Shown one piece after another: positions 29,604 to 48,929 of a stretch of 49,128 nucleotides of DNA. This DNA comes from Armatimonadota bacterium (GTDB lineage Bacteria; Armatimonadota; UBA5829): the NCBI GenBank assembly GCA_039679645.1, contig JBDKUO010000042.1, positions 1 through 49,128 of the forward strand. Reading direction: 5' to 3'. Under the pieces are notes generated by a model. The model did no database searches and was not told where the DNA came from. It saw only the letters and a program-made list of their open reading frames with translations. The first letter of the stretch is position 1; each line of letters opens with the position of its first letter. The translations under genes and the position numbers were made by a program.

Positions 29604-31712
29604 TTGGAATTTTGGCGCTATTATAGGATTATACGCAGGAGGCGTTGGCTGATTATCCTCGGCATGGTGATCTGCGTTGGCGCTGTTCAAATAAATAATA
29701 TGCTCACGCCTCGGCTTTATATGGGACGGACCACTGTTATGGAGTCTCAGGGGATGTCCAGCGAAGGTACGCCGATCTATGCTGAGCAGCAGATGATGAT
29801 GATGGACGTTCAGCTCAAACTGTCCAACCTTGGAAATATCGCCACCAGTCAGAGAGTCTTGTCCAATGCGGCTGAGACACTCAAAGACATGAATCTATCC
29901 TATACTCCCGAACAAATCCTATCCAGGACTTCCGTTCAACCGGTTAAGGACACTAATATCCTTGCGATCGAAGTTACGATGGAAAACCCGCAGGAAGCAA
30001 AGGTAGCTGCGGACGTGATTGCTAATGAGTTCAAGAATGTCTATGCCGATATAAACAACTCAGCCGTCAGGCAGTCTCGAGAGTTCATTGAAGAGCAGTT
30101 GGAGACGACCCGCAAAGCTATGGTCAAGGCGCAGACTTCGCTGAAGGATTATAAAGAGAAGAACGGCATTGTAGCCATCGATCAACAGGGTCAGGCCGCT
30201 GTCCAGAGACTCATGCAATCCAAGATGGACCTCAACAGGGCACAGGCGGATTACAACGTGAACGCTGCACGTCTTGCGAAGGTAGATAATGAACGAAAAA
30301 GTCTACCCGAATATGAAATTTCAAACGAACAGACTTCCCGCGATCCGATATGGCAGCAGTATACTCAACAGCTTGCCCAGTTGGAGACACAAAAAGCAGG
30401 TATGCTTAATGGTATTGCAAACCAACCCCGGAGGGGTAAAAACCATCCCGAAGTTATGAATCTGCAGAGGCAGATTGATGACATTTGGAAAAAAATCAGC
30501 ACTATGAAGCAAGATTTTGTTTCCGGGAAGACCGAAAGCAAAAGTCAGGTCTATGTGAATACCATGGGCAATTGGGTGAATGCAAAGGTCGATGCGGTTG
30601 GATCGGCTGCACAATTGCAGGCGATGAATAATGTCCTCGAACAAACGCGCGAAGAAATTTCAGCGCTTCCTGAGCAGCAGGCAAAATATGCCGAGCTGGA
30701 GACGGACGTTACGGCAGCAACCAACACTTATGGTCTTATGAGAAGCAAATTGGATGAGGCCAAGATCAAGGAACAGCAGTCTAAGAACGAAGTGACGCTG
30801 AAGACAATTGATCCGGCCTACTGGGTACCGGTCGACCAGCGCAAGTCGCTCAAGCTCATAATGGCTCTTCTTCTGAGTCCGCTCCTTGGAATCGGCGCGG
30901 CATTTCTGCTCCACTATGCGGACAACGGAATCAGGACTCCTGTCGATGCGGAGAAGCTGCTGGGAATTCCGGTGCTGGCGGCTGTGCCTGCTTCAAGGGC
31001 TCACAGTCTGGCTAGGCAGCAGTGTCCGGAGATCGTCGACATATCTTATCAGATGCTTACGTCGAACTTATGGGTCGAAAGCCAAAGCCGGGACTTCAAT
31101 GCTATTGCTATAATAAGCGCGGAGCCGGATTCAGGGCGCAGCATCACAGCATCCAATTTGGCCGTGGCTCTTGCAAGAGAAGGCGCGCGCGTAGTGTTGG
31201 TGGATACCGACTTACGCAAGCCCACTCAGCATTTGATCTTTGGAGTAGATAACAAAGTCGGCTTGACAAATCTGTTAAGCGGCGCTGCCTCTTTGGAAGA
31301 GGCGATGGCTCCCACCAGGGTGCAGGGTCTTTTGCTGGTTTCAAGCGGTCCGGTTCCAGAAAATCCAGTAAAGCTGCTGCGCTCGCCCGAAATGAAGGAA
31401 TTTGCCGACGAGGTCAAATCACTGGCCGATTTCGTTATATACGATACTCCGGCGGCCGTCACATTTCCTGACCCGGTTCTTGTTGCGGCTCAGGTCGGAA
31501 ACGCAATTGTCGTGCATTCGGCAGGCCGTGTGCCGCGAGGCAGCGAGGCAGAGCTTCAGTCTCGATTGGCCTCGGTCGATGTTCATGAGATCGGCGCTGT
31601 GCTCAATAAGGTAAAGCGAGAAGACAGCAGTGGATACTTCCATTACAATCGATCATATGTCGGTGTAGGGACTGCGGGATTGCCTGTCGGACGGAAGGCG
31701 ATTCGATCGTGA
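29604..31712 (+). CDS. Wzz/Wzc-type polysaccharide co-polymerase with degenerate BY-kinase domain
   Basis: The 702-residue inner-membrane protein has a Wzz domain between two membrane helices (about 16-32 and 410-430). Coiled-coil regions lie in the periplasm (for example residues 155-235 and 330-390). A cytoplasmic CpsD/BY-kinase-like domain covers about 470-690. Such proteins control chain length and export, usually through tyrosine autophosphorylation. The Walker A loop reads EPDSGRSITASNLA; the invariant lysine is Arg512. Walker A' VVLVDTDLRKP is kept and the Walker B-like FVIYDTPAA is acceptable. The tail has three tyrosines in GYFHYNRSY. Kinase activity is therefore doubtful. TTG start follows GGAGGA. 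Confidence 0.88.
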   Translation: MEFWRYYRIIRRRRWLIILGMVICVGAVQINNMLTPRLYMGRTTVMESQGMSSEGTPIYAEQQMMMMDVQLKLSNLGNIATSQRVLSNAAETLKDMNLSYTPEQILSRTSVQPVKDTNILAIEVTMENPQEAKVAADVIANEFKNVYADINNSAVRQSREFIEEQLETTRKAMVKAQTSLKDYKEKNGIVAIDQQGQAAVQRLMQSKMDLNRAQADYNVNAARLAKVDNERKSLPEYEISNEQTSRDPIWQQYTQQLAQLETQKAGMLNGIANQPRRGKNHPEVMNLQRQIDDIWKKISTMKQDFVSGKTESKSQVYVNTMGNWVNAKVDAVGSAAQLQAMNNVLEQTREEISALPEQQAKYAELETDVTAATNTYGLMRSKLDEAKIKEQQSKNEVTLKTIDPAYWVPVDQRKSLKLIMALLLSPLLGIGAAFLLHYADNGIRTPVDAEKLLGIPVLAAVPASRAHSLARQQCPEIVDISYQMLTSNLWVESQSRDFNAIAIISAEPDSGRSITASNLAVALAREGARVVLVDTDLRKPTQHLIFGVDNKVGLTNLLSGAASLEEAMAPTRVQGLLLVSSGPVPENPVKLLRSPEMKEFADEVKSLADFVIYDTPAAVTFPDPVLVAAQVGNAIVVHSAGRVPRGSEAELQSRLASVDVHEIGAVLNKVKREDSSGYFHYNRSYVGVGTAGLPVGRKAIRS

Positions 31713-31744
31713 TATATGTAGAGTGTATGGATTTATTATGACAT

Positions 31745-31777
31745 ATGGACCCTTACCGTTGTGCGGCAAGGGTCCAT
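31745..31777 (+). terminator. hairpin between the co-polymerase and acyltransferase genes
   Basis: Arms ATGGACCCTT (31745-31754) and AAGGGTCCAT (31768-31777), with CCG/CGG pairing inside. No T-run follows, so it is more likely an mRNA-stability or partial-termination element within the EPS operon than a full stop. Confidence 0.45.
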
Positions 31778-31948
31778 TGTGCAGCGTCTATTGACGTGTA
31801 TTCTTCCATTCACACGACTGATCCGACTGTGGAATATATCTATAAGAATGACTCTGCAAAAGCAGCTTGGGAATCTTTGAACGACTATTATCGGTATGAA
31901 AAATGCCGAGTTATGAGAAAAAGCAAAGCAGATTATGGAGGACTGGGA

Positions 31949-32605
31949 ATGCCTGAGGTCATATTGGGCAAGGATGCTGAGATTGATGATGGCGTGAAAC
32001 TGGGCTATCTGACGGGCCGCAAGATCAAGGACCACACACTGCGCATAGGTGATGATGCGTGCATACGCTTCGGCACGGTTATCTATGGCGGTACGACTAT
32101 AGGAAACCGTCTTGCCACCGGCCACAATGTCACGATTCGTGAGGAAAGTGAGATCGGTGACGGCTTCAACGTATGGAACTGCACTACTATAGACTACGGC
32201 TGCAAGATCGGCAACAACGTTAAGATTCACTGCAACTGCTATATCGCGCAGTTTACGGTAGTCGAGGACAATGCATTTATGGCGCCTGGAGTGACAATAG
32301 CCAATGATATCCACCCCGGCTGCGAATTTTCAGGCCAGTGTATGCACGGTCCGCACATCGAAGAAGGTGTCGAGATCGGCGTAAACGTTACGATCCTTCC
32401 ATTCGTGCGGATCGGTGCGCATTCGGTAATTGGTTCAGGCGCTGTTGTGACCAAAGACATCCCCGCCGGGTCGGTGGTGGTCGGCAATCCAGGTCGCGTA
32501 ATATGCACAATTCATGACTTAAAATGTCAGTCCGGGTTGACAGATGAGCCATATAAAGCTATACTCCTAAATGGCTCCATGGAACCCCTACAGGACCAGA
32601 GGTGA
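31949..32605 (+). CDS. left-handed beta-helix acyltransferase (WlbB/WbpD-like)
   Basis: From ATG 31949 (GGAGG seven bases upstream) the protein has 218 residues, mostly hexapeptide repeats of the [LIV]-G-x4 type: [72 protein letters not shown]. It belongs to the trimeric acyl-CoA- or acetyl-CoA-dependent transferases; the GxVVxxGxVV-like end ([19 protein letters not shown]) is typical. Next to an aminotransferase and a Gfo/Idh dehydrogenase it probably acylates a 3-amino group on a UDP-sugar, as WlbB/WbpD do. An open frame extends upstream to the 31745 hairpin but without a ribosome site. It overlaps the codons before the next start. Confidence 0.86.
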
Positions 32606-32607
32606 GT

Positions 32608-33705
32608 ATGGTTCCCCTTATTGATCTTAAAATTCAGCACAAATCCATCGCTTCAGAGGTCGAGGCAGCAATTAAGAATGTCTGCGACAACACCGCGTTT
32701 ATTCTCAGCGATGAAATGAAAGAATTCGAGTCGGAGTTTGCCGCCTACTGCGGGGCAAAGCACGGCATAGGAGTAGCCAACGGCACGGAGGCTTTGTTCT
32801 TGGCGCTGCTTGGCCTTGGAATCGGCCAGGGCGACGAAGTAATCGTTCCTTCGAACACGTTTATTGCTACTGCAGCGGCAGTTTCGCATACGGGCGCTAC
32901 ACCTGTTTTTGTCGATTGTGACCCCGAGACCTATTGCATCGACCCCGCCAGGATTTGCTCGGCCATCACCGACAAGACAAAGGCCATCATGCCGGTGCAC
33001 CTCTACGGACACCCCGCTGATATGGACACAATTATGAGCATTGCGCGCGGCAGTGGTCTCAAGGTGATTGAGGACTGCGCCCAGGCGCATGGCACTCATT
33101 ACAAGGGCAGGCAGGTCGGTTCGATTGGTGACGCGGCGGGCTTTAGTTTTTATCCGAGCAAGACTCTCGGCGCATATGGCGACGCCGGTATGGTGATGAC
33201 GAACTCAGATGAGGTTGCGGACAGAGTCAAGCTGCTGCGGGACAATGGTCGCACGACGTGGTATGAACATGCGATTATCGGGTATAACTCAAGACTGGAT
33301 GGCATGCAGGCAGCCATACTGAGAGTGAAGCTCAAATATCTGGATAAATGGGTCGAAGCAAGGCGCGCGCATGCAAAGGCATATCGGGAACTGCTCTCGG
33401 ACGTTGAAGGGCTTGTCTTACCGACTGAGAAGCCCTACGCTCAGCACTCATATTATGTATATGTAGTGCGCGCGGCAAACAGAGATGCGTTCATGGCCAA
33501 GCTTAAAGAGAATGGTATCGGTTGTGGTATACACTATCCGCTGCCTTTGCATCTTCAGCCTGCATTCAGCTCCCTTGGCGGCAAGGTGGGTGACAACCCC
33601 GTAGCCGAGAATTATGCAAAGCATATTGTGTCGATTCCGATGTTTCCGGAGCTTACGCCCGAGCAGGTGGCGGAAGCCGCTGAAGTAATCAAGCAAGCTG
33701 TCTAA
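32608..33705 (+). CDS. DegT/DnrJ/EryC1/StrS family sugar aminotransferase
   Basis: PLP enzyme of 365 residues that transfers an amino group from glutamate to a keto-sugar nucleotide. Family marks include [24 protein letters not shown], the cofactor segment [18 protein letters not shown], and the PLP lysine Lys185 in [15 protein letters not shown]. The C-terminal half carries [17 protein letters not shown] and [12 protein letters not shown]. WbpE/WlbC-like activity (3-keto to 3-amino) fits the adjacent acyltransferase and dehydrogenase. ATG 32608 with AGAGG five bases upstream is preferred; GTG 32602 overlaps the previous stop and lacks a site. Confidence 0.92.
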
Positions 33706-33810
33706 TACCAACTAAATAACAAATATAAATTACTCAATACTAAATGAAAAGTCCGCCGTAGAGCGGAGCTATTATCTGGCAGGATGATGAAAAGGAGAGG
33801 GAGTATCGTT

Positions 33811-34515
33811 ATGGCAACGGTGGAGGGCGCCGCTGCAAAGGAGAATGGCACGCGGGTATACAGCGTGAGAAAAATCAGGCAGTATAAATCAAAACGCATA
33901 TTGGACCTGATTGCCGCGTCTGTAGGTCTTGTGTTGGCAGCACCCCTGGCAGCCATCATAGCTTTGTTCATCAAGGTTTCCAGCCCCGGCCCGGTTTTGT
34001 TCAAGCAGACCAGGATCGGCAGGGGAGGGGAGAAATTCACGTTCTACAAGTTCCGCAGTATGCGTGTGGGCAACGATGACAGCTCACATCGCAAGTATAT
34101 GAAGTTCTTCATAGAAGGAAATGAGGAAGGGCTTAAAAACTTCCACCAGCGCGGAAAAAAGATATATAAAATGACTTGCGACGACCGGGTCACGATGGTG
34201 GGCAGGTTCCTCAGGCGCACCAGTCTTGACGAACTGCCGCAACTGTTGAATGTGCTCAAGGGCGACATGAGCATGGTCGGCCCGAGGCCGCACATACCCT
34301 ATGAAGTGGACCTGTACCAGGATTGGCACCGCCGCCGCCTGCAGGGTCTGCCGGGAATTACGGGCTGGTGGCAGATCCATGGACGAAGCAGGGTCACCTT
34401 CGACGAGAGCGTGAAGATGGATATCTGGTATCTGGAGCATCAGTCGGTAATACTCGACATAAGGATTATGCTTCGCACCATCACCAAGGCTATCGTCGGA
34501 CGAGGAGCCTGTTAA
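33811..34515 (+). CDS. undecaprenyl-phosphate sugar-phosphate transferase (PF02397)
   Basis: The 234-residue protein is a monotopic phosphoglycosyl transferase of the PglC/WbaP core type, which starts repeat-unit synthesis by moving a sugar phosphate to undecaprenyl phosphate. After a basic stretch (RKIRQYKSKR) comes one hydrophobic re-entrant helix (LIAASVGLVLAAPLAAIIAL). Typical motifs follow: SPGPVLFKQTRIGRGG, FTFYKFRSMR, FLRRTSLDELPQLLNVLKGDMS with the catalytic Asp-Glu, and MVGPRP, ending LPGITGWWQIHGRS. ATG 33811 has GGGAG seven bases upstream; 33784 is an in-frame alternative. It sits between the amino-sugar genes and the dehydrogenase in the same operon. Confidence 0.93.
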   Translation: MATVEGAAAKENGTRVYSVRKIRQYKSKRILDLIAASVGLVLAAPLAAIIALFIKVSSPGPVLFKQTRIGRGGEKFTFYKFRSMRVGNDDSSHRKYMKFFIEGNEEGLKNFHQRGKKIYKMTCDDRVTMVGRFLRRTSLDELPQLLNVLKGDMSMVGPRPHIPYEVDLYQDWHRRRLQGLPGITGWWQIHGRSRVTFDESVKMDIWYLEHQSVILDIRIMLRTITKAIVGRGAC

Positions 34516-34542
34516 AACAAAAATTCTTCTGGCAGGGAAATA

Positions 34543-35553
34543 ATGAACATCAAAGTAGGCGTTGTTGGGGCGGGCTACTGGGGTCCCAATATCATTAGAA
34601 ACTTCAATCAGATCCCCACTTGCGAGATGGCAATCTGCTGCGATAAGGACGAAAAACGCCTTGCGCACATGAGCCGCCTATATCCGAATGTAAAGACCAC
34701 TACAAGTTTCGACGACTTGATTAATGATCCGACTATAGACGCTGTGGCCGTATGCACACATGTGTCGGCGCACTATCCGCTCGCAAAAAAAGCATTGGAG
34801 GCGGGTAAGCACGTTCTTGTCGAAAAGCCTTTGACTGCCAAAGTCAGTGAGGCTCAGGAACTGGTCGATCTGGCAAAGAAAAACGGCAGAGTCCTGATGG
34901 TGGACCACACGTTTGAGTATACCGCCGGTGTCAACAAGATGAAAGAAGTCATTGAGAGCGGCATACTGGGCGATGTGCTCTATGTTCACTGCGCAAGGCT
35001 TAACCTCGGCATTTTCCAGCGCGACATCAATGTAGTGTGGGACCTTGCTCCGCACGATCTTTCGGTGATCTTGTATGCTACGGGTCTCAAGCCCAAGACT
35101 GTGAGAACTGTCGGCATGAAGCTTCTGCATCCAAAGGTCGAGGATGCTGCGTTTGTGACGTTGAAATGCGAAAACAATGCGAGCGCCGTTATTCATGTCA
35201 GTTGGGTCGACCCGCGCAAGGTGCGTTCGGTGAGCGTAGTCGGCACCAAGCAGATGCTGGTATATGACGATCTCGACCCTTTAGCGAAGATACAAATCTA
35301 TGATAAAGGCGTGGACAACCCGCCGCACTATGATACGTTCGGTGAGTTTCTGTGTTCATATCACTACGGAGATATTCATATTCCCCGCCTGCAGGAGCAG
35401 GAGCCTCTTTCCGTTATGTGCAAGCACTTTTTGGAGTGCTGCGAAACGGGCAAAAAGCCGCGCAGTTCAGGCGAGAGTGGACTGAATATGGTCAAGATTC
35501 TCGCGGCATCGGATGAGTCCATCGCCAACGGTGGAATGGAGATATCCATCTGA
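34543..35553 (+). CDS. Gfo/Idh/MocA family oxidoreductase (WlbA/WbpB-like)
   Basis: The 336-residue NAD(P)-dependent dehydrogenase has the nucleotide loop GVVGAGYWGPNIIRNF (6-21) and the catalytic-type VLVEKPLT with Glu94-Lys95-Pro96. APHDLSVILYATG lies near residue 172, where related sugar dehydrogenases keep an Asp-x-x-x-His or His-Asp pair. In WlbA/WbpB enzymes this fold oxidises C3 of a UDP-N-acetylglucosaminuronic acid, giving the ketone used by the aminotransferase. That reading is an inference from the neighbours; other Gfo/Idh reactions are possible. Last gene of the EPS operon; a strong hairpin terminator follows 35 bases after the stop. Confidence 0.88.
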   Translation: MNIKVGVVGAGYWGPNIIRNFNQIPTCEMAICCDKDEKRLAHMSRLYPNVKTTTSFDDLINDPTIDAVAVCTHVSAHYPLAKKALEAGKHVLVEKPLTAKVSEAQELVDLAKKNGRVLMVDHTFEYTAGVNKMKEVIESGILGDVLYVHCARLNLGIFQRDINVVWDLAPHDLSVILYATGLKPKTVRTVGMKLLHPKVEDAAFVTLKCENNASAVIHVSWVDPRKVRSVSVVGTKQMLVYDDLDPLAKIQIYDKGVDNPPHYDTFGEFLCSYHYGDIHIPRLQEQEPLSVMCKHFLECCETGKKPRSSGESGLNMVKILAASDESIANGGMEISI

Positions 35554-41791: not shown

Positions 41792-42526
41792 TTACTTTCG
41801 GAATCTTCGATATCCGACAATGCCGCCTAGACCGGCCAGAAGAGCCATTATGCTTGTCGGTTCGGGGACTGCCAGTTGTCCGGTGACAGAGGTAGTCTCC
41901 CATGCGCTGTTGGCGTCTTCCCTAACCTGAAGATCAGCGCCGAAATAAGTCTGATACGTGATCATCTCCTGGGCAAGAGCTGCAACGTCCGCAGCATCGG
42001 TCTCATCATACTTGGTTCCGCCGGTGTCGAGCGGATTGGCGTAGTTGTCGTTTGCCCACCAACTGCAACCTATTGTGCCTACCACACCGCTGACGTTGCT
42101 CGAATTTGTATATTCCGTCCAAAACGGGAACGTGGTCCCAGTTGTTATCTGCGACCAACTCGTGCTGTAAGCGGTTCCTTCCCAGTCGTAATTATAGCGA
42201 AACTGGACATTGCCACTGAGTGCGGCAATGGTTTTCCCTGGGATCCAGAATGTCCACAAAAGCATGCTGCCGTTGTCTCCGGTGCTGTAGACTATGGCCT
42301 CTTGCGCATTGAAGATCGTTGTCCCCGGGTGTGCGCCGCCGCCCATGTTTGTGTATGTGCCGTTTGCTGCCGCGGCAAATGCGCTCGGCGTCCAAGCAGA
42401 AAACAGGGTTGAATTCCACCCATCGGGACCGGTGTCTATATACATATGGACATCCACTGCCTGTGCAGCTGCGACTGTGACCAGAAGCAGGACGCAAATG
42501 CACACTACTACGCTGATCTTTTTCAT
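41792..42526 (-). CDS. PEP-CTERM sorting-signal protein, paralogue 1
   Basis: The 244-residue secreted protein has a signal peptide (KKISVVVCICVLLLVTVAAAQA, cleavage near residue 23). It ends in a PEP-CTERM tail: VPEPTS, a hydrophobic helix (IMALLAGLGGIVGY) and RRFRK. In known systems such tails are cut and anchored by an exosortase, often together with EPS production. The middle region is rich in Trp, Tyr and Gly (AHPGTTIFNAQEAIVYSTGD, then FRYNYDWEG and YDETDAADVAALAQEM) and matches only the neighbouring paralogue, so it appears to be an uncharacterised surface-protein family. AGGAGGAG precedes the ATG. Confidence 0.85.
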   Translation of the reverse strand: MKKISVVVCICVLLLVTVAAAQAVDVHMYIDTGPDGWNSTLFSAWTPSAFAAAANGTYTNMGGGAHPGTTIFNAQEAIVYSTGDNGSMLLWTFWIPGKTIAALSGNVQFRYNYDWEGTAYSTSWSQITTGTTFPFWTEYTNSSNVSGVVGTIGCSWWANDNYANPLDTGGTKYDETDAADVAALAQEMITYQTYFGADLQVREDANSAWETTSVTGQLAVPEPTSIMALLAGLGGIVGYRRFRK

Positions 42527-42822: not shown

Positions 42823-43521
42823 TTACTTTCGGAATCTTCGATATCCGGCAATGCTGCCGATGCCGACCAGGAGCGCCATTATACTTGTCGGCTCGGGGGT
42901 GGCCACATACCCGGTCAGTGTTTGTGACTGCCATGCGCTTTCAGACGAGTCTCGGACCTGTAGCTCGGCTGCGGAATATCCATTGCAGGCTACCATTTGA
43001 GCGGCAACAGTGGCTATGTCTGCTGCGTCCGTTTCGTCATATGGTGTTCCACCAGTATCAAATGGAGCAGCGCTGTCGTCAACGGCCCAATTAGCGCATC
43101 CAAAAGTTCCCACAACTCCTGTGCCATAGTTTATCATACTGGGGACAGTCGTACGCCAAGTTGTAGTAGCTTCTGTTCCGTCCCAATTGTAGGTATATCT
43201 ATACTGGATGTTGCCCGTGAGATCAGTGACTGTTTTATCGGGAATCCAGAAAACCCACTGAACAAAATGACCCAGGTCTCCGGTGCTGTAGACTATTGAC
43301 TCCAGCGGATCGAAGAGATTTGTTCCAGGGTGCGCACCGCTTCGCATATTGACGTATGTCCCGGCTGCAGCGGCAGCATATGCATCTGTCTTCCATGCTG
43401 CATATGCAGCAGATGCATTAGGGGCGGTGTCGATATAGAAGTTGACATTCATTGCCTGCGCCATAGTTCCTGCAATTAAAAGCATGGCACAAATACACGT
43501 TAGTACAAATACCTTTTTCAT
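42823..43521 (-). CDS. PEP-CTERM sorting-signal protein, paralogue 2
   Basis: The 232-residue protein is similar along its length to the gene just downstream. It has a signal peptide KKVFVLTCICAMLLIAGTMAQA, then FYIDTAPNAS, SGAHPGTNLFDPLESIVYSTGD, GTPYDETDAADIATVAAQM and LQVRDSSESAW. The tail is TPEPTS, IMALLVGIGSIAGY and RRFRK. Only the PEP-CTERM tail shows how it is processed; the domain has no function I recognise. DNA identity with paralogue 1 is highest at the 3' end, pointing to recent duplication or gene conversion there. GAGGAG precedes the ATG. Confidence 0.85.
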   Translation of the reverse strand: MKKVFVLTCICAMLLIAGTMAQAMNVNFYIDTAPNASAAYAAWKTDAYAAAAAGTYVNMRSGAHPGTNLFDPLESIVYSTGDLGHFVQWVFWIPDKTVTDLTGNIQYRYTYNWDGTEATTTWRTTVPSMINYGTGVVGTFGCANWAVDDSAAPFDTGGTPYDETDAADIATVAAQMVACNGYSAAELQVRDSSESAWQSQTLTGYVATPEPTSIMALLVGIGSIAGYRRFRK

Positions 43522-46200: not shown

Positions 46201-47115
46201 CTAACATCGTTTTCGCAGGGCCAGAGATGCACCAGCCAGTGCGCAGAGCAATGTTATGCATGTGCCTGGTTCGGGGACTGTATTAGCTACCACAAACCTG
46301 CCTGTGTATGGGGCAAGGTCTATGAACTCTCCAGTGTTCCAGTTGTACCTGGCCAACTTACTATTGGCACCTGCCGACAGGTAGTGGTTCAGGAACAAGT
46401 CTCCGTTTGCGGTGAAAGCAACTGAGTCAAAACCATAGTTATTGAGTGGAGGTGCAATTGCCTCATAGAACTGCTTTGTAGACCTGTTCAGTTTATAAAG
46501 GCCGAATGCGCACTGGTTTAGGGCATAAATGCCTCCTGATGGGGCTGTTATCAACTGCCGAGGGACGACTAGGTCTTTTGTGCCCGCATACTTTTCCACC
46601 AGATTTCCCGTGGCTACGTTATAGCGGAAAACCACATCCGCCGAGGACCAACTGCCCTCACACACATACAAATCACCATCAGCCCCAAATGTTAGGCCTG
46701 TAGGTTCATAAATGGATGTGTTTAGAGGCACTGCACTGACTAAGCCCGTGTTCAGATTAACCTGGATAATTCTGTTGTTGTAGCGCTGAGTTGCATAAGC
46801 ACAGCCGTCCGGGCCGAGTGCGAGCCCACCTATTTCTGTTCCGTAACCTGTCGGGAGCACGTACGAGCGCAGAACCTGGCCGTCATCCAGATTTATCGCC
46901 TTTAGTTCGTAGTTGACAGATGTATATAAAGTGCCCTGAGTTCCGGATACCATATATCCGGTTGTGCATTTGACCCTGCCGATCAGAGCACCTGTGGATG
47001 GATCATACTTAGCAAATCCTCCTTGTTCCTGCATGACCAGAATCTCTTTTGCGACCGCCGGTAGGGAGACCATCAATACACATGCAGTAAATAGAAATAT
47101 CTTGATTAGTTTCAT
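46201..47115 (-). CDS. PEP-CTERM beta-propeller-like surface protein
   Basis: From ATG 47115 (AGGAGG ten bases upstream) the protein has 304 residues. It has a signal peptide KLIKIFLFTACVLMVSLPAVA and about six repeats of an NHL/lyase-like blade: FAKYDPSTGALIGRV, ALGPDGCAYATQRYNNRIIQVNLNTG, TFGADGDLYVCEG, TAPSGGIYALNQ, AFTANGDLFLNHY. The tail is VPEPGT, a hydrophobic helix and RKRC, a PEP-CTERM signal. A propeller exposed on the surface is likely; ligand unknown. It is transcribed away from the sigma-factor fusion gene across a 215-base gap. Confidence 0.86.
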   Translation of the reverse strand: MKLIKIFLFTACVLMVSLPAVAKEILVMQEQGGFAKYDPSTGALIGRVKCTTGYMVSGTQGTLYTSVNYELKAINLDDGQVLRSYVLPTGYGTEIGGLALGPDGCAYATQRYNNRIIQVNLNTGLVSAVPLNTSIYEPTGLTFGADGDLYVCEGSWSSADVVFRYNVATGNLVEKYAGTKDLVVPRQLITAPSGGIYALNQCAFGLYKLNRSTKQFYEAIAPPLNNYGFDSVAFTANGDLFLNHYLSAGANSKLARYNWNTGEFIDLAPYTGRFVVANTVPEPGTCITLLCALAGASLALRKRC

Positions 47116-47202
47116 TTGTCTTTTTCCTCCTAGAGCAATGTAATTAAGAAGCTTCCGGGCGATATACTGAATGTATGCCTCTATCAACTAGATGCGTCTG
47201 CA

Positions 47203-47266
47203 GGCGCGATGGTTGCGCGTTACTAGATAAATTTTTCTAGAATAAATTGCGGCGCAGAATCGCGCC
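47203..47266. promoter_or_regulatory. nested inverted repeats in the divergent gap (candidate operator)
   Basis: Outer arms GGCGCGAT (47203-47210) and ATCGCGCC (47259-47266) enclose inner arms CTAGA (47223-47227) and TCTAG (47236-47240). The element lies between the promoter areas of the PEP-CTERM propeller gene and the sigma-factor gene, suitable for shared control. Confidence 0.4.
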
Positions 47267-47287
47267 TAAACGTCAACTCGCCGCGTC

Positions 47288-47293
47288 TATAAT
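47288..47293 (+). promoter_or_regulatory. -10 box (TATAAT) before the sigma-factor gene
   Basis: A perfect TATAAT lies 38 bases before the TTG start. No standard -35 is seen; CGTCAACTCG just upstream resembles neither a clear housekeeping nor a clear ECF -35 element. Confidence 0.35.
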
Positions 47294-47330
47294 ATATACA
47301 TCATTTGTCGATTGTAGGAGGATTGTACTG

Positions 47331-48551
47331 TTGAGTGAGGAGTTTGAGCAGGTCTGGGAATCACACTGCAGTCATGTTCGCCTAGTTTTGCTCTCAATCG
47401 CTTGTGATGTAGATATTGTGGAGGACTGCCTTCAAGAGACATACCTAAAGGCCCGTGCTGGGTTTTCGAGCTATAGGGGCGAAGGTCTGCATTCCTGGCT
47501 TGCTACTATTGCCAGGAATGTATACTATTCATATGCTCGACGAAAATATTTCAACTCCGAAGAGAGCCTGGACAAGATCGATAATTACCCGAGCACCGAG
47601 ATCGGCGTTGGCTCGGATGACTACCTTTCTCTCCTTGTGATTCGGGAAGCCATTTCTACCCTTCAACCTGAGCTTCGCCAGGCCTTGATCATGAAGCATT
47701 ATGGTGGTTGCGATTATCGCGATATCGGTAACTATCTCTCCTGTACTCCTAATATTGCCAAACACAGGGTGTGGCGTGCTATGTGTAAGGTCAGGGACAT
47801 GATCGGTTGGGACAAAACATACGCAGTCGAGTGCAATGAGTTGAGTGGTCTTAAAGTATTGGACTGGCTTTACAACTCACTCCCAGCTCATGAGATGGAG
47901 GAGATTAAATCCCATATCAAGTTCTGTCCATCCTGCAGGAAGGTGCTGTCGGAGTTTCGCAGGCTGAGCAGGCTCCTTGACACTATCGAAGGAGACTACC
48001 GCATACTCACATTGGTCGAACTCGACGAACATGGACACACAACCCGCTACGCGTGGGTCAAGCATATTAATGAACATCATGATCCCCTGTATACCTGGCG
48101 GTGGTTGATGTGGAATGATTGGAGCGTTGAATATCTTGCCCTGCAAAGTGAACCCGCCCAGATACACTGGCTTGCAAAGCCAGCTCCGGCAGGCTTGCGT
48201 AGACTTGAGGGTGACTTGCCGAACCCGGTGCCCATGGGTGGGATGGTGGAGGCAATGTATGTAGCATGTCCGCCTTTCGGCTCTCACTGGAATGCTCACA
48301 AGCGCGATGATGGCTCTTGGCACTATCACCATAAGCACTCGCCGTTTCCAAAGAGTCAAGGCTTGCTTGTGGTTACTCTCAGGCTGCCAAAGGGAGCCAA
48401 GCTCATCGGAGTCAATCCCAGCCCGCAGAAACACACCACCAGCGGAGGCAGGACATCGCTCACGTGGCGGGCAATGCTGGAGCCTATCGAGCTAATTAAC
48501 GGCGATGATTCGCGCTGGCAATTCGAGGTGCATTTGGACTACCGGCTGTAG
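47331..48551 (+). CDS. ECF sigma factor fused to zinc-finger anti-sigma-like segment and novel C-terminal domain
   Basis: From TTG 47331 (AGGAGG nine bases upstream) the protein has 406 residues. Sigma region 2 spans about 5-75 (EDCLQETYLKARAGFSSYRGEGLHSWLATIARN). Region 4 spans about 105-160 (TLQPELRQALIMKHYGGCDYRDIGNYLSCTPNIAKHRVWRAM). A zinc-finger motif of the anti-sigma (ZAS) kind follows: HEMEEIKSHIKFCPSCRKVLSEF, about 188-210, with H..C..C spacing. The last 190 residues form a beta-rich domain, ending in VVTLRLPKGAKLIGVNPSP and SLTWRAMLEP, that I do not recognise. There is no membrane helix. Sigma and anti-sigma are normally separate proteins, so this could be self-inhibited and ligand-switched. 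Confidence 0.82.
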   Translation: MSEEFEQVWESHCSHVRLVLLSIACDVDIVEDCLQETYLKARAGFSSYRGEGLHSWLATIARNVYYSYARRKYFNSEESLDKIDNYPSTEIGVGSDDYLSLLVIREAISTLQPELRQALIMKHYGGCDYRDIGNYLSCTPNIAKHRVWRAMCKVRDMIGWDKTYAVECNELSGLKVLDWLYNSLPAHEMEEIKSHIKFCPSCRKVLSEFRRLSRLLDTIEGDYRILTLVELDEHGHTTRYAWVKHINEHHDPLYTWRWLMWNDWSVEYLALQSEPAQIHWLAKPAPAGLRRLEGDLPNPVPMGGMVEAMYVACPPFGSHWNAHKRDDGSWHYHHKHSPFPKSQGLLVVTLRLPKGAKLIGVNPSPQKHTTSGGRTSLTWRAMLEPIELINGDDSRWQFEVHLDYRL

Positions 48552-48852: not shown

Positions 48853-48929
48853 TGGTAGCCCCGACGGGGTTCGAACCCGTGATCTCATGGCTGAGAACCA
48901 TGCATCCTGGACCGCTAGACGACGGGGCC
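48853..48929 (-). tRNA. trnE: tRNA-Glu (anticodon CTC)
   Basis: On the minus strand GGCCCCG and CGGGGCT form the acceptor stem (one G-U at the end). GTCTAGCGGTCCAGGAT is the D-arm region, CATGG-TTCTCAG-CCATG is the anticodon stem-loop with CTC, and a GGTTCGAACCC-type T arm follows. Discriminator A and an encoded CCA follow (77 bases with CCA). The CTC anticodon reads GAG. It is a single tRNA with its own terminator. Confidence 0.93.

Follow-up and report, generated by a model that had tools for sequence, protein, structure and literature searches.

A soluble ECF sigma factor of Armatimonadota fused in one chain to a zinc anti-sigma domain and a predicted M1 aminopeptidase-type beta domain

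Ordinary anti-sigma factors are separate proteins with a membrane anchor and an outer sensor. Anti-sigma brakes built into the chain of the sigma factor are already known from ECF48, ECF52, ECF53 and IutY. In ECF52 (SCO4117 of Streptomyces coelicolor), ECF48 and ECF53 an ECF sigma factor likewise carries at its C terminus a zinc anti-sigma domain plus one more domain (PMC5826349, PMC8999054); these proteins have membrane helices and were described from Actinobacteria, and ECF52 carries an extracellular carbohydrate-binding module, whereas the protein analysed here is soluble, comes from Armatimonadota and has an M1-like beta domain instead. IutY (ECF243) of Pseudomonas putida also holds sigma and anti-sigma in one chain, the sigma factor being freed by proteolysis, but it belongs to membrane-bound cell-surface signalling, and the part of the source that deals with it reports no combination of a zinc bundle with a soluble beta domain (PMC8999054). 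Removal of the extension frees the sigma factor in published fusions, as found for IutY and with supporting data for SCO4117 (PMC8999054, PMC5826349). In ChrR of Rhodobacter sphaeroides, too, a beta-rich sensor domain comes after a soluble zinc anti-sigma domain, but ChrR is a protein separate from its sigma factor and its second domain is a cupin (PMC8999054). The extensions of ECF41, ECF42 and ECF238 (CorE) are SnoaL_2, TPR or Cys-rich domains rather than an anti-sigma bundle with an M1-like domain (PMC8103513, PMC8999054), and some members of ECF270 carry extensions according to a review. No published description of a soluble sigma/anti-sigma fusion ending in an M1-like domain was found, and a peptidase-like beta domain of this kind is not known from sigma factors described so far. 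New in the present case are a soluble family of single origin, the fold identity of its beta domain, promoter-like elements and a conserved start at the joint between sigma and anti-sigma parts.

The gene lies at the right end of the window, that is, the whole stretch of DNA analysed, a contig of 49,128 bases (G000:C42) from a genome of 3.4 Mb. A first-pass annotation had read it as a single chain of ECF regions 2 and 4, a zinc anti-sigma domain and a beta-rich C-terminal part devoid of a membrane helix, and the reading frame, Pfam matches, hydropathy and an AlphaFold model all bear this architecture out (Table 1). From the TTG at 47331 to the stop codon ending at 48551 neither internal stops nor frameshifts were found on reading the sequence. 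Downstream, a tRNA-Glu gene on the minus strand (48853-48929) is followed by the contig end, and no separate anti-sigma gene was found between the fused gene and that end. An ECF sigma factor was taken to have regions 2 and 4 and to lack regions 1 and 3. This composition was found in the window protein, in which the Pfam search proposed by the annotation returned Sigma70_r2 at residues 11-72 and Sigma70_r4_2 at residues 103-151, both above cut-off, while the TIGR02937 model (sigma70-ECF) gave 52.4 bits against a cut-off of 42.9. The region 4 helix-turn-helix of the window copy reads CTPNIAKHRV, as against mostly CPVGTAK-RV in its homologues (alignment A4).

Table 1. Features of the fused gene and its surroundings, with positions counted in the window.
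Feature	Position	Strand	Basis or remark
Fused ECF sigma / anti-sigma / beta-domain gene	47331..48551	+	406 aa; TTG start; single open frame
Shine-Dalgarno sequence AGGAGG	47316..47321	+	9 nt 5' of TTG; sequence
Sigma region 2 (residues 1-72)	47331..47546	+	Pfam PF04542, E 5.6e-7
Sigma region 4 (residues 101-158)	47631..47804	+	Pfam PF08281, E 9.6e-7
Zinc anti-sigma domain (residues 166-218)	47826..47984	+	zf-HC2 21.1 bits; Hx3Cx2C; helices in model
All-beta C-terminal domain (residues 222-406), predicted M1 aminopeptidase N-terminal-domain fold, no catalytic part	47994..48548	+	AlphaFold; VIA-align
His cluster HWNAHKRDDGSWHYHHKH in beta domain	48285..48338	+	sequence; alignment A6
GCGTCTA, possible -10 of fused gene	47283..47289	+	AAC 11 nt before, vs 16-17 nt in homologues
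ECF-type element AACC-N15-GCATCTA facing PEP-CTERM gene	47189..47214	-	sole pattern match in window; 0.06 expected
Divergent gene for secreted beta-propeller-like protein with PEP-CTERM tail; candidate target	46201..47154	-	Pfam DUF6923, E 6.6e-7
Joint start sequences of homologues			gctGAGGAGaagccgATG (G004); AAAGGAGatgcgaaaaATG (G005); AAAGGAGaatggcgATG (G228); GGAGGAacagaccATG and AAAGGAGccaaggagcATG (G224)

A protein search of 41 genomes returned full-length relatives from the same genus (L002 in G004, 33% identity) and from the same family (L003 in G005, 31%), and a profile of the C-terminal domain, run against all 291 Armatimonadota genomes, added L043 (G228) and two loci of one genome, L044 and L054 (G224). 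The search of related genomes for the same fusion, also suggested by the first-pass annotation, therefore yielded five loci besides that of the window, and all six have the same three-part order, each in one frame. Among the matches listed from a scan of named genomes, the full-length loci were L055 (G005) and L056, the latter being the L054 locus of G224. No clear unfused copy of the C-terminal domain was found in the 291 genomes, partial matches with E above 1e-4 being set aside as weak. The C-terminal half lies in the same frame as the rest in all six loci, and the concern that it might belong to a separate gene or be the product of a missed frameshift is thus ruled out. In a tree of 65 sigma domains the six fused ones form one clade with support of 100/99 on a long stem, which argues that the fusion arose once; the longest branch within this clade is that of the window copy. 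Judged from the sequences, the fused architecture is genuine and ancient, and it arose once within the sample examined.

Among the best matches listed for a combined sigma and zinc profile, those at other loci that reach the zinc domain have a stop codon between the sigma and zinc genes, and such split pairs in the phylum often share one frame with a single stop between them. This arrangement suits a reading in which the stop between operonic sigma and anti-sigma genes was lost once and the fusion has since been tolerated without acting as a switch, the window copy now drifting; the patchy occurrence (6 loci in 291 genomes), a TAG at a conserved Trp near the start of L044 and the long branch of the window copy are consistent with it. 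However, across three families, and with identity at about 25-40%, the frames have remained open for 390-550 codons, and the zinc ligands, sigma motifs and beta fold have been kept. Because frame, ligands, motifs and fold have been maintained over such divergence, a useless fusion is considered quite unlikely.

Several observations on individual loci may be added. The TAG of L044 (L044:880-960, G224:C57; GLDAM*AAHQQ) stands where the other five proteins have their near-start Trp, which points to a nonsense mutation, a start codon further downstream or an error in the assembly; L044 also carries a C-terminal TPR extension. In other Armatimonadota, ECF sigma matches lie inside open frames of about 800-1100 residues (G031:C47, G031:C18 and G028:C289), possibly as very long sigma extensions.

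The zinc anti-sigma (ZAS) assignment was based on Hx3Cx2C with an upstream ligand inside a helix bundle. In the window protein the ligands are C168, H195, C199 and C202, with H195 (47913-47915) in HIKFCPSC, and in the AlphaFold model the anti-sigma part is formed by helices within residues 173-218; the zf-HC2 match at residues 178-203 scores 21.1 bits, slightly below the Pfam cut-off of 22.2. Among the homologues zf-HC2 was found in five of six, with a best E of 1.6e-7. The first-pass annotation had made its reading depend on conservation of the zinc motif in orthologues, and here the outcome is divided: Hx3Cx2C is kept in five of the six fused proteins although the identity of the zinc domain is only about 30%, and all zinc ligands are lost in L054. 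Class I anti-sigma domains without the zinc motif are common and groups mixing zinc and non-zinc members are known (PMC7406223), so the loss in L054 does not refute the anti-sigma assignment; it does indicate that zinc is dispensable in some members. The input could also be a metal or the redox state, sensed by the zinc bundle, or by the His cluster in the case of the window copy, with the beta domain acting only as a spacer. Sensing of oxidation is common among soluble zinc anti-sigma domains (PMC8999054, PMC7406223), and the window protein has six His within 18 residues. Since this cluster is missing from the homologues (alignment A6) and L054 has no zinc ligands, such a sensor is unlikely.

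No sign of a membrane helix was seen in the 406-residue protein, whose most hydrophobic 19-residue stretch, at 1.50, falls within the sigma domain. No 19-residue stretch of the six fused proteins exceeds a Kyte-Doolittle (KD) value of 1.5, and none of these proteins has a transmembrane helix after the zinc domain, the trait of ECF52, ECF48 and ECF53, in a comparison made by domain make-up. In contrast, five of six separate anti-sigma proteins from the same phylum contain a hydrophobic stretch with a KD maximum of 1.9-2.2. This difference suggests that in the fused family a soluble domain has replaced the membrane anchor.

The M1 aminopeptidase family is characterised by an N-terminal beta domain and a catalytic domain with HEXXH and GXMEN, and the M1-type beta fold occurs in aminopeptidases, oligosaccharyltransferase and TFIID. 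No sequence match to the C-terminal domain was found in Pfam or PDB. Modelled alone with AlphaFold, as the first-pass annotation had advised for what it called an unknown domain, and with a six-sequence alignment, it gave a pLDDT of 88 and a pTM of 0.83. The AlphaFold model that shows the helices of the anti-sigma part has 13 beta strands from residue 224 to residue 405. Both Foldseek and VIA-align returned the N-terminal beta domain of M1 aminopeptidases as the top fold match, and the predicted domain has the same fold as ribophorin I/Ost1, LTA4H, IRAP, ERAP1 and TAF2 (VIA-align Z 14.4, 13.9, 13.5, 13.3 and 12.9, respectively; overall range 12.5-14.4), with about 160-172 of 191 residues aligned at an rmsd of about 3 Å and at a sequence identity of 4-13%. 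On the predicted model, then, the C-terminal domain has the M1 N-domain fold. It differs from the M1 aminopeptidases in missing their catalytic domain, and a motif search found neither HEXXH nor GXMEN in any of the six fused proteins. The modelled fold points to contact with a protein or peptide rather than to polymer binding; fold sharing alone demonstrates no function.

Taken together, the window protein is read as a soluble, self-inhibited ECF sigma factor, with a probability of about 0.62. Regions 2 and 4 would bring RNA polymerase to an ECF-type promoter, and the zinc helix bundle, as a class I anti-sigma domain, would clamp them in cis and so block polymerase binding. The M1-like beta domain would stand where ordinary anti-sigma factors have their membrane anchor and outer sensor, and would most likely serve as a docking face for a cytoplasmic protein or peptide, although this kind of partner is a guess. 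Contact with the partner, or oxidation or loss of zinc, could then loosen the clamp. The fused gene would probably activate its own promoter and, in the window genome, perhaps also that of the divergent PEP-CTERM gene. The intramolecular switch put forward in the first-pass annotation is well founded by analogy with ECF52, ECF48, ECF53 and IutY; an internal brake is the natural reading of a fusion of single origin, while cis inhibition, like the release mechanism and autoregulation, is something we infer.

In five of the six genes, the window copy being the exception, an ATG is found 1-4 codons ahead of the first zinc-ligand position, with a Shine-Dalgarno-like sequence (GAGGAG, AAAGGAG or GGAGGA) 6-9 nt 5' of it, although the surrounding linker is unconserved. 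A separate anti-sigma gene would begin at this position, and the joint start may survive as a relic or still initiate a second product. In the latter case the first start would give the fusion and the joint start a free anti-sigma protein, made of zinc bundle and beta domain, that brakes in trans. Just 0.8-8.6% of the codon positions of these genes show equally strong predicted anti-Shine-Dalgarno pairing, which favours two products, but shuffling of synonymous codons, which leaves the protein unchanged, yields similar pairing (combined p 0.12), owing to the many Glu, Lys and Arg residues of the linker, and selection on an internal Shine-Dalgarno sequence beyond amino-acid content was not detected by this test. 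The window copy, moreover, has lost the joint start, and a start codon inherited from an unfused pair fits the same facts. A two-product gene is accordingly regarded as possible, if somewhat doubtful. Its fullest form, in which in-frame internal initiation makes one gene encode two regulators, a self-braked sigma factor and a free brake, with the M1-like domain as a cytoplasmic receptor and the window copy as an obligate single-chain switch after losing its second start, is a tentative and rather speculative proposal.

Upstream of four of the six fused genes (those of G004, G005 and G228 and the second of G224) the promoter-like pattern AAC-N16/17-GCRTCTA was found, and AAC-N16-GCATCT lies farther upstream of the first G224 gene. 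The full pattern occurred in at most one of six regions across 3000 shuffled sets, a comparison that overstates the case, since the motif was picked after viewing the sequences. Some of the sites are very close to the listed start, which means that translation of those genes must begin further downstream. The spacing is different in the window (Table 1), and the fused gene has no properly spaced -35 element. With the longest branch, an altered region 4, no internal start and a misplaced -35, the window copy may have changed its role or be drifting.

The first-pass annotation had further supposed that a ligand or surface polymer may be sensed by the C-terminal domain and that the neighbouring PEP-CTERM and SLH genes may be under the control of the protein. 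One neighbour lends this some colour: the ECF-type element on the minus strand lies 35 nt upstream of the start of the divergent PEP-CTERM gene, whose PEP-CTERM tail scores 15.8 bits, under the Pfam cut-off. From its upstream sequence this gene is a candidate for control by some ECF factor, and the fused sigma factor is a plausible one. The element is not assignable to the fused factor in particular: the genome encodes 16 or more ECF-like loci, and members of the genus without the fused sigma factor retain a similar element in front of another gene. The claim for the remaining neighbours falls away: no GCRTCTA was found near the SLH gene or the other two PEP-CTERM genes, both of the latter have sigma-70-type promoters, and the neighbourhood is unconserved, a motif search over about 8 kb around the homologues finding neither PEP-CTERM nor SLH genes. 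Direct sensing of a surface polymer is unlikely because the protein has neither signal peptide nor membrane helix, and its best fold matches are M1 peptidase N-domains; the surface-polymer reading as a whole is very improbable. A large regulon was rejected, as AACC-N15/16-GCRTCTA was no commoner than a reversed control genome-wide in ten genomes.

The two PEP-CTERM genes with sigma-70-type promoters, at 41792-42526 and 42823-43521 on the minus strand, are adjacent and similar to each other. On the plus strand at 29604-35553, translations examined by eye include a chain-length/tyrosine-kinase-like protein, an acyltransferase, an aminotransferase, a sugar transferase and an oxidoreductase, a run that looks like an exopolysaccharide cluster. 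Elsewhere in G004 and G000, L198 (G004:C2) and L209 (G000:C13) encode a small, conserved acidic protein whose tail, KRKRGRPSK, resembles an AT-hook. GGAACC and CGTC precede genes of this type in several genomes of the genus, including relatives lacking the fused sigma factor, and the site was rejected as a target of the latter; the small protein is probably a target of some ECF sigma factor, likely another one. The element AAACATTATGC-N7-CTGCGTCTA lies between convergent genes in both genomes (L189, G004:C12; L190, G000:C31), ahead of a C/T-rich stretch and a hairpin; its interpretation as a small RNA was dropped, the flanks being equally conserved.

If the preferred reading of a self-inhibited sigma factor is correct, these proteins would constitute a compact, soluble one-chain sigma switch, free of membrane and partner gene. 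This would make them straightforward to assay in vitro or in E. coli, and they might serve as a genetic part. They join a sigma factor to the predicted M1-type beta domain, here without any enzyme.
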